A DNA stretch of 64,000 nt from Acetobacter senegalensis. Its GTDB lineage: Bacteria; Pseudomonadota; Alphaproteobacteria; Acetobacterales; Acetobacteraceae. Shown one piece after another: positions 57,351 to 58,563 of this stretch. A program made the position numbers and the translations under genes. The notes under the pieces were generated by a model. That model was not told the origin of the DNA and did not search any database. It saw only the letters and a program-made list of their open reading frames with translations. Positions within the stretch are counted from its first letter, which is position 1, and each line of letters starts with the position of its first letter. The stretch spans positions 1-64,000 of the forward strand of contig NZ_LHZU01000144.1 of assembly GCF_001580995.1 (NCBI RefSeq), written 5' to 3'.

Positions 57351-57804
57351 ACCCCTCCCCCACCTCATGCCTTGCCTGACTGAATATTATCTTCAGGTCT
57401 TTTTATCAGATCCGCACAGTGCAGCACACAGGCAGGGCTTTCTTTAGCTGGCACCACGTACGATCCAAAAATTGATTTGTGATTTTATTTAAGAAAAGAA
57501 TGTTTCAAAAAAATTATTACTATTTGATATTATTTTCTTTACAAATAATGATGGAAAACCATTTGACGATAGTCTTTTCATCTTTGCCTCAATCAAATGT
57601 CTTAAGTGAAAATATTCAATCATAAGTTGTGGTTAACGGTTGCATGATGCGCCATGCGATAAGTGCATACCCTCATCACGATACAACTAATGGTGGTAAA
57701 AAATTCGTTTACGTTATATGAAGCGATATGAATTGATATTATAACACATAAAGCACAACCATAAGGTGTGCTCACACTCTCTTCCGGGAGAAGGGATTAA
57801 CGCC
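57351..57804. other. AT-rich upstream region of the CtrA-like regulator
   Basis: About 450 bases without a gene. It is sharply AT-rich: only 8 of the 60 bases at 57481-57540 are G or C. It is the divergent region of tsaE and the regulator. A candidate CtrA site lies at 57622-57636. Other TTAA copies occur but not in full sites. Confidence 0.6.
57622..57636. promoter_or_regulatory. Candidate CtrA-binding site
   Basis: ATAA-N7-TTAA matches the TTAA-N7-TTAA consensus at seven of eight positions and contains TGGTTAA, the reverse complement of the TTAACCA form. It lies 170-183 bases upstream of the regulator's start and would fit autoregulation. This is a pattern match only. Confidence 0.45.
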
Positions 57805-58563
57805 ATGCGAATCTTGTTGGCCGAAGATAACAACACATCCGCCCAGACGATCCTTCCTGTGCTTGTACACGCGGGTCTTCACGTAGATGTGACTGATACA
57901 GGGCGCGGCGCGATTGAAATGCTGCGCAATTATAATTATGGCTTGGTGATAGTAGAGTTATTTTTGCCAGATATGGATGGTTACGATTTTATTGCGTCTC
58001 TGCGCGCAAGAAAAATCCAGACGCCTATCGTCATTCTTTCAGCGATTGACAAACCTCATTCAAAAATAAAGGCGTTTTCAATCGGGGCTGATGATTATCT
58101 TACAAAGCCATTCGACCCTGAAGAGCTTGTTGCGCGTGTTCAGGCGATTTTAAGGCGCTCAAACGGCTACAGCCAGCCTGTTACAGAAGTGGGCAATATG
58201 GCCCTTGATCTTAATCAGCACACAGTCAGCGTAGCAGGCGTTCCTGTTCATCTGACTGGCAAGGAATTTGCCATTCTGGAACTGCTTGTGTTGAGGAAAG
58301 GTATTTCCTTAACCAAGGAAGCCCTGCTGAATCATCTCTATGGCGGACATGATGAGCCTGACATCAAGATCATTGACGTTTTTGTCTGCAAATTACGCAA
58401 AAAACTTCAGGCGGCAGGGGCCGGCAACCTTATCTCCACCATATGGGGACGCGGTTATGTTCTGAATGACTCCCAACCCAAAAAAACCGTAGCAAACCGT
58501 ATTAGTCCCGCCACGCATTATCAGGAAAACCGGGTTCCCCAGCTTCAGGCTGCCGGGGAGTAG
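57805..58563 (+). CDS. Orphan CtrA-like response regulator with Glu51 in place of the phospho-acceptor Asp
   Basis: This OmpR/CtrA-family protein of 252 residues has a receiver domain (1-118) and a winged-helix DNA-binding domain (about 130-225). The second domain has HLTGKEFAILELL, LNHLYGG and IIDVFVCKLRKKL, the CtrA-type signature. The receiver keeps Glu7/Asp8, Ser79 and Lys101, but the phospho-acceptor position is Glu51 (IVELFLP; Caulobacter CtrA has Asp51). The C-terminus ends AAGE, not in the terminal Ala-Ala recognised by ClpXP. Base composition is lower in GC than its neighbours (85 of 180 bases at 57841-58020). No kinase gene is adjacent. ATG 57805 follows AAGGGA. It is either a second CtrA-like paralogue or the organism's CtrA; I cannot tell which. 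Confidence 0.9.
   Translation: MRILLAEDNNTSAQTILPVLVHAGLHVDVTDTGRGAIEMLRNYNYGLVIVELFLPDMDGYDFIASLRARKIQTPIVILSAIDKPHSKIKAFSIGADDYLTKPFDPEELVARVQAILRRSNGYSQPVTEVGNMALDLNQHTVSVAGVPVHLTGKEFAILELLVLRKGISLTKEALLNHLYGGHDEPDIKIIDVFVCKLRKKLQAAGAGNLISTIWGRGYVLNDSQPKKTVANRISPATHYQENRVPQLQAAGE

Follow-up and report, generated by a model that had tools for sequence, protein, structure and literature searches.

A CtrA orthologue with glutamate at residue 51 in an Acetobacter genome without the CckA–ChpT relay

CtrA is a textbook cell-cycle regulator that is controlled by both phosphorylation and proteolysis. In Caulobacter CtrA, the engineered D51E change mimics phosphorylation, and blocking of the C-terminal Ala-Ala prevents degradation by ClpXP. 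In the stretch of Acetobacter senegalensis DNA analysed here (64,000 nucleotides, hereafter the window), an ORF encodes a CtrA-like protein that has glutamate at residue 51 and ends in AAGE. This raises the question of whether, as a preliminary description of this DNA had proposed, the gene encodes a natural always-on CtrA, freed from both the CckA–ChpT phosphorelay and regulated proteolysis and controlled through its transcription. The features of the locus are the following:

57369–57804, no strand: intergenic region upstream of ctrA
57805–58563, plus strand: ctrA-like gene, an ORF of 252 aa plus stop
57805–58155, plus strand: receiver domain, residues 1–117 (Pfam PF00072 at residues 3–113; complete (beta-alpha)5 fold predicted in the AlphaFold2 model)
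57823–57828, plus strand: codons of Glu7 and Asp8, the acidic metal-binding pair (translation, alignment)
57955–57957, plus strand: codon 51, GAG, encoding Glu in the place of the phospho-Asp (translation, alignments)
58039–58041, plus strand: codon of Ser79, which is gone along with residues 80–90 in A. tropicalis
58105–58107, plus strand: codon of Lys101 (translation, alignment)
58180–58467, plus strand: winged-helix DNA-binding domain, residues 126–221 (Pfam PF00486 at residues 147–220; retention of 0.94–0.98 at positions conserved in ChpT-positive sequences)
58468–58560, plus strand: fast-evolving C-terminal tail, ending in AAGE and not in AA

In the window protein, Pfam recognized a receiver with 88.9 bits and, with 74.2 bits, a DNA-binding domain of the OmpR type, and the top NCBIfam model was 'response regulator transcription factor CtrA' (RespRegCtrARhodob), with 315 bits, which is below its cut-off of 350, the next family being at 168. 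An in-frame GTG at 57766 is a possible earlier start, which would add 13 aa. Among the products of the flanking genes, Pfam recognized TsaE and a PD-(D/E)XK nuclease to one side of ctrA; those to the other side matched phosphomethylpyrimidine kinase, phosphoglucomutase/phosphomannomutase, a pterin-binding enzyme and FtsH. Judged by its sequence, the window gene is the CtrA orthologue of an Acetobacter. The residues reported in the preliminary description were borne out by the translation: Glu51 is encoded by GAG, the remaining receiver residues Glu7, Asp8, Ser79 and Lys101 are all present, and the protein finishes with QAAGE. A search of the own genome for a canonical CtrA with Asp51 found no second CtrA, the next-best regulator being 36% identical, and the candidate explanation by a second copy was thus rejected. 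The predicted receiver model was complete, with helix alpha-4 at residues 84–92; on its sequence and model, the protein may be described as a pseudo-receiver, in which at least one of the five active-site residues is gone and the fold is retained.

The nearest relative was found in A. tropicalis LMG 19825 (L064; L038 yields the same protein), and its CtrA, 90% identical to that of the window, shares both Glu51 and the AAGE end, which rules out a sequencing error or a strain-specific mutation. In this one genome, an in-frame loss of 12 residues (79–90) has removed Ser79 and helix alpha-4 from the protein; AlphaFold2 predicts no such helix for it, and the confidence of the model is low in that region. 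OmpR-type regulators form the active dimer through the alpha4-beta5-alpha5 face, so that A. tropicalis CtrA looks incapable of the usual phospho-switch. Between the window and A. tropicalis, dN was 0.032 and dS 1.42 in the receiver; in the DNA-binding domain, dN was 0.033 and dS was saturated. Twelve species pairs were tested, and wherever dS was unsaturated, dN/dS came to about 0.01–0.12 in both domains. The C-terminal tail evolves fast, and the recognition helix is conserved across 66 aligned proteins of the family. Purifying selection on window ctrA is strong, and the DNA-binding half of its product is conserved.

The presence of the relay was assessed across the family. The Pfam ChpT model (PF10090) matched 157 of 249 family genomes, 150 of them above the cut-off, and none of the 49 Acetobacter genomes; among 14 named control genomes, only Caulobacter matched. 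Profiles trained on the family (23 sequences for ChpT and 19 for CckA) were then applied to a panel of 80 genomes spanning both states, namely, 22 of Acetobacter, 37 from elsewhere in which ChpT was absent or doubtful, and 21 that were positive for Pfam ChpT. The ChpT profile scored 106–240 bits in the 21 positive genomes and at most 39 bits in the other 59, and among the low matches listed nearly all lay inside large kinase-sized ORFs. The CckA profile scored 425–793 bits in the same 21 genomes and in G074 and G087 (87% and 84% complete, respectively), where CckA was found alone without ChpT, and no more than 393 bits in the remaining 57. Consequently, 57 of the 80 genomes have neither protein. 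It should be noted that the gap of the CckA profile is narrow at its foot (lowest counted score 425.6 bits in G010; 406.8 bits for the second kinase of the relay-positive G014; 393.2 bits in G025), and that part of the high scores of the 21 positives is by construction, because four of them gave training sequences for ChpT and ten for CckA, while the low scores of the other genomes are informative. With weak Pfam ChpT matches, G001 and G009 were scored as negative, the trained profile having matched only kinase-sized ORFs, and G017 and G099 as positive on the Pfam matches alone.

No CckA-grade kinase was detected with the trained profile in the 22 Acetobacter genomes tested. In the own genome, the best CckA match had an E-value of 3.8e-88, whereas each of the 21 relay-positive genomes reached 2.6e-127 or better. 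The window genome has neither CckA nor ChpT. The proposed release of this CtrA from the CckA–ChpT phosphorelay is therefore well supported, because the genome has no other CtrA with Asp51, no ChpT by either Pfam or the family-trained profile, and no CckA-grade kinase. A chpT gene lying just past the window end was also considered and rejected: in a comparison of 17 kb of this contig with the chpT-che-ctrA-fliI locus of G003, the only match was at ctrA. In G003, a relay-positive relative (L195, 3532–12099), chpT lies upstream of a cheA-like gene, and ctrA and a fliI-like gene are about 6 kb away, a layout that fits an old link between CtrA and motility.

Within Acetobacter, 46 of 49 genomes gave a CtrA match with an E-value of 1e-40 or lower. 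The three genomes without such a match were G117, G210 and G283, two of which are small (1.5–1.7 Mb); one further copy of ctrA, in G270, has two stops. Residue 51 in the 46 Acetobacter sequences was Glu in 20, Asp in 8, Thr in 8, His in 5, Ser in 4 and Asn in 1. Lys101 was retained in 25 of the 46, and the full active-site quintet, defined as acids at positions 7 and 8, Asp51, Ser or Thr at 79, and Lys101, in seven of 44 (four duplicate loci and two broken or partial loci were excluded from the quintet counts). Glu51 and the AAGE end are thus shared with A. tropicalis, but Glu51 is not conserved within the genus.

In a quick tree of 120 sequences, constructed without the last ten ChpT-positive genera, the Acetobacter sequences formed two CtrA clades, of 15 and 29 sequences. 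In the clade of 15, which takes in A. musti, A. fallax and A. oeni, all sequences have Glu51 and keep E7, D8 and S79, K101 is present in 14, and the proteins end in AA; a fliI-like gene adjoins ctrA in all four loci tested (L065, L066, L067 and L197). Together with 17 other genera, which from their place beside Acetobacter are presumably acetic acid bacteria, these 15 sequences make up a wider clade (branch support 88) with Glu51 in 29 of 32 sequences. The clade of 29, which holds the window gene, has a long stem (0.57) and has often lost K101; its residue 51 is Asp in eight, Thr in eight, His in five, Glu in four, Ser in three and Asn in one. No fliI-like neighbour of ctrA was found in the stretch examined in three species of this clade (L193; L196/L160; L064/L161). 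One Acetobacter clade (L040–L045 and L009) has Asp51 and the full active-site set though ChpT is missing, and it may be asked whether phosphorylation from another source was kept or regained there; phosphate from another donor is possible both in this clade of seven sequences and in G013, a genome outside Acetobacter with the full quintet and no ChpT.

The census beyond Acetobacter covered CtrA matches in 89 other genera, one genome each, all of which were read. Asp51 was present in 56 of 57 ChpT-positive sequences, and the remaining one, from G062, is split in the assembly and has Asp51 when read in pieces. In the 32 ChpT-negative sequences, residue 51 was Glu in 16, Asp in 10, Ala in two, Arg in two and unreadable in two. 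The full quintet was found in 55 of 56 ChpT-positive genera, the only exception being G017, versus one of 24 ChpT-negative genera, or four of 28 if incomplete assemblies are kept. These counts leave out G062, G032 and G086 as fragmented in the assembly or truncated at the end of a contig, G068 and G096 as doubtful orthologues (35–39% identical, Arg51), and G039, G041, G087 and G093 as incomplete assemblies in which no ChpT was found. All four of the latter have Asp51 and three have the full quintet; among them, G039 and G041 (87% and 90% complete) have Asp51 and the quintet, yet neither CckA nor ChpT was found in them. In G032, which has Ala51 and no ChpT, the ctrA match lies in two frames (L204).

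Among the 24 ChpT-negative sequences, 8% have retained D8, 25% D51 and 58% K101. Asp51 is kept in six of them, five of which have no acid at position 8, and three of these five have Arg at 101; of the 16 ChpT-negative sequences with Glu51, 14 have no acid at position 8. Over the 34 receiver positions conserved in ChpT-positive sequences, retention in ChpT-negative sequences was 0.50 at the five chemical positions versus 0.88 at the other receiver positions (permutation over positions, p = 0.003). Before the ten ChpT-positive genera were added, the same test gave 0.83 for the other positions and p = 0.012, and the DNA-binding positions, computed at that stage, were retained at 0.94. The association of residue 51 with ChpT had a Fisher p-value of 8e-12 (47 ChpT-positive sequences with Asp versus 21 non-Asp and 10 Asp ChpT-negative sequences), which does not amount to replicated evidence because the sequences are not independent: the tree holds one or two independent pairs on supported branches and three to six on all branches, too few to test. 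On the best tree, at least six changes of ChpT and at least ten losses of Asp51 were counted, many of them on weakly supported or long branches. The losses of relay and residues reflect few independent events.

Transcription and stability of the window CtrA were considered next. The suggestion that control lies in transcription gained nothing from the upstream region, in which the last 350 bases contain neither GANTC nor TTAA-N7-TTAA, which we take to be the CtrA binding motif. The regions preceding ctrA in 21 Acetobacter loci had no site in common; GANTC was present in eight and TTAA-N7-TTAA in three. Canonical CtrA sites were not enriched genome-wide (6 versus 12 in the reversed control). 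Two of the six sites, with the sequence TTAAC-N6-TTAAC (L332 and L335, site 1501 in each), precede long ORFs by about 100 bases; these ORFs are cut by the locus ends, and one of them carries a Hint domain; from the sequence, both sites are possible CtrA targets, while the total site count is not above the control. With respect to proteolysis, a C-terminal AA was found in 38 of 57 ChpT-positive sequences, and the acidic tail of the window protein probably makes it a poor ClpXP substrate. This tail is not peculiar to the window strain, because the last residue is acidic in 22 of 31 Acetobacter sequences outside the clade of 15 that ends in AA. RcdA, presumably represented by PF07323, was found in none of the 80 genomes, with Caulobacter as a positive control; since relay-positive genomes are also without it, its absence does not single out the window CtrA. 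Consequently, an escape from proteolysis is suggested by the tail, and the absence of RcdA does not bear on it.

Taken together, these data are best explained by loss of the relay, conversion of the CtrA receiver into a pseudo-receiver and function of the protein without phosphorylation, an explanation that we consider probable as a whole. The kinase CckA and the phosphotransferase ChpT would have disappeared in one lineage of the family, Acetobacter being among its members; the receiver would have become a pseudo-receiver, with Asp51 replaced by Glu and Asp8 changed in most of the genera concerned. In the subclade of the window, the constraint on the active site would have loosened further, with the fold and the DNA-binding half still under purifying selection. 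Since CtrA was retained by selection after the relay was lost, it probably works without a phosphorylation switch, and binding and regulation of targets by the window protein most likely require no phosphorylation. This explanation draws on the residues, the absence of CckA and ChpT from the genome, the conservation pattern, selection and the tail, all computed here, and we infer from them DNA binding without phosphate, constant activity and stability. Glu51 may help to hold the active state in this protein, and the lineage would not depend on it. Several results count against this explanation: the small number of independent events on the tree, the sequences with a full quintet but no ChpT (the Acetobacter clade of seven, G013, G039 and G041), the near-constancy of Glu51 in the wider clade, the narrow gap of the CckA profile, the lack of enrichment of CtrA sites, the three Acetobacter genomes without a CtrA match and the NCBIfam score below the cut-off. 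We also put forward tentatively, as somewhat short of an even chance, that Glu51 served as a phosphomimetic bridge: when kinase and phosphotransferase were lost at the root of the acetic acid bacteria, a D51E change would have allowed CtrA to persist. The remaining active-site residues would later have become dispensable, followed by Glu51 itself and, in A. tropicalis, even by helix alpha-4. If so, living species show the steps from a switched response regulator to an unswitched transcription factor.

In another reading, Glu51 is a natural phosphomimetic by which the receiver is held in its active dimer, as by the engineered D51E in Caulobacter, and is kept by selection for that effect. The near-constancy of Glu51 in the wider clade, the retention of E7, D8 and S79 throughout its Acetobacter members with K101 in all but one, and the presence of Ser79 and Lys101, the would-be contacts of Glu51, in the window protein speak for it, and a phosphomimetic role is plausible, on sequence grounds, where Glu51 is retained in that clade. 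However, the window's own subclade accepts E, D, T, H, S and N at this site, its closest relative A. tropicalis is without Ser79 and helix alpha-4, and most Glu51 sequences outside Acetobacter (14 of 16) have no acidic residue at position 8. According to the available text of a review of pseudo-receivers (2025, PMC12632262), Glu is a common replacement and has been proposed as the source of constant activity, but this role is a hypothesis that was disproved in some proteins. In Rhodobacter, CtrA overexpression with D51E slightly lowered gene transfer and with D51A doubled it, as given in the part available of PMC6363796; therefore, D51E is not always 'on'. This reading thus appears less likely than not, and there is only partial support for the claim that Glu51 keeps the window CtrA always on: the residue is present and is kept in the wider clade, but it is replaceable in the window's subclade.

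The seven Acetobacter sequences with Asp51 and the full quintet, together with the other histidine kinases of the own genome (13 HisKA matches, 11 above the cut-off), would accord with a receiver that is still phosphorylated by another kinase or a small phosphodonor where Asp51 was kept or regained, the Glu51 of the window being a recent local change. Glu51 cannot, however, accept phosphate as Asp does, and it is common to A. tropicalis and 16 of the family genera read, so we regard this as unlikely. Decay of a functionless ctrA would be in line with the drift of active-site residues across Acetobacter, the three genomes of 49 without a match at E 1e-40 and the two stops in the G270 copy, but it was rejected as very improbable on the purifying selection in both domains (dN/dS about 0.01–0.12 in the 12 pairs), with the DNA-binding positions kept at 0.94 and a CtrA match in 46 of 49 genomes. 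The loss of the relay followed by phosphorylation-independent function thus remains the preferred explanation.

A literature search on CtrA in acetic acid bacteria found no study of the protein, and a naturally occurring CtrA with Glu51 was not described in the available portions of the literature on the CtrA phosphorelay and its evolution, D51E, pseudo-receivers and Rhodospirillales. As far as their available text goes, Brilli 2010 (PMC2877005) and Tomasch 2021 (PMC8116508) describe chpT and cckA as missing or rarely found in Rhodospirillales and do not mention residue 51 of CtrA. For a CtrA without ChpT, the former gives a substitute phosphotransferase as one possibility and the latter homologues that are hard to find as another. 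In the same part of Brilli 2010, cckA is present in some genomes, whereas no CckA-grade kinase was found here in 22 Acetobacter genomes. Our data suggest that in the Acetobacter lineage the CtrA receiver is mostly unable to use a substitute phosphotransferase, which may answer the puzzle that Brilli 2010 raised.

The window protein resembles the canonical relay-controlled CtrA in its orthologous sequence and two-domain layout, and its predicted receiver model superposes on the receiver chain of PDB 4qpj ('Cell cycle response regulator CtrA') with an rmsd of 1.1 over 118 columns and 43% identity. It differs from the canonical protein in having no phospho-Asp, no CckA or ChpT in its genome, and an acidic C-terminus in place of Ala-Ala. 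Compared with the engineered Caulobacter D51E protein with a blocked C-terminus, it has Glu51 and a non-Ala-Ala end by nature; here, however, the partner enzymes are gone, and relatives carry Thr, His, Ser or Asn at this position. A lineage with CtrA but without the kinase, the phosphotransferase and, usually, the receiver chemistry offers a natural experiment on the purpose of phosphorylation, and on whether pseudo-receivers are made active by a Glu in place of the phospho-Asp, a question left open in the available text of the recent review (PMC12632262). Like the pseudo-receivers and atypical response regulators described there, the window protein has lost an active-site residue, commonly replaced by Glu in that class, and keeps the fold; what sets the present case apart from those in that text is that a single family holds together relay-dependent relatives, a stage in which only residue 51 is changed, and more advanced stages.
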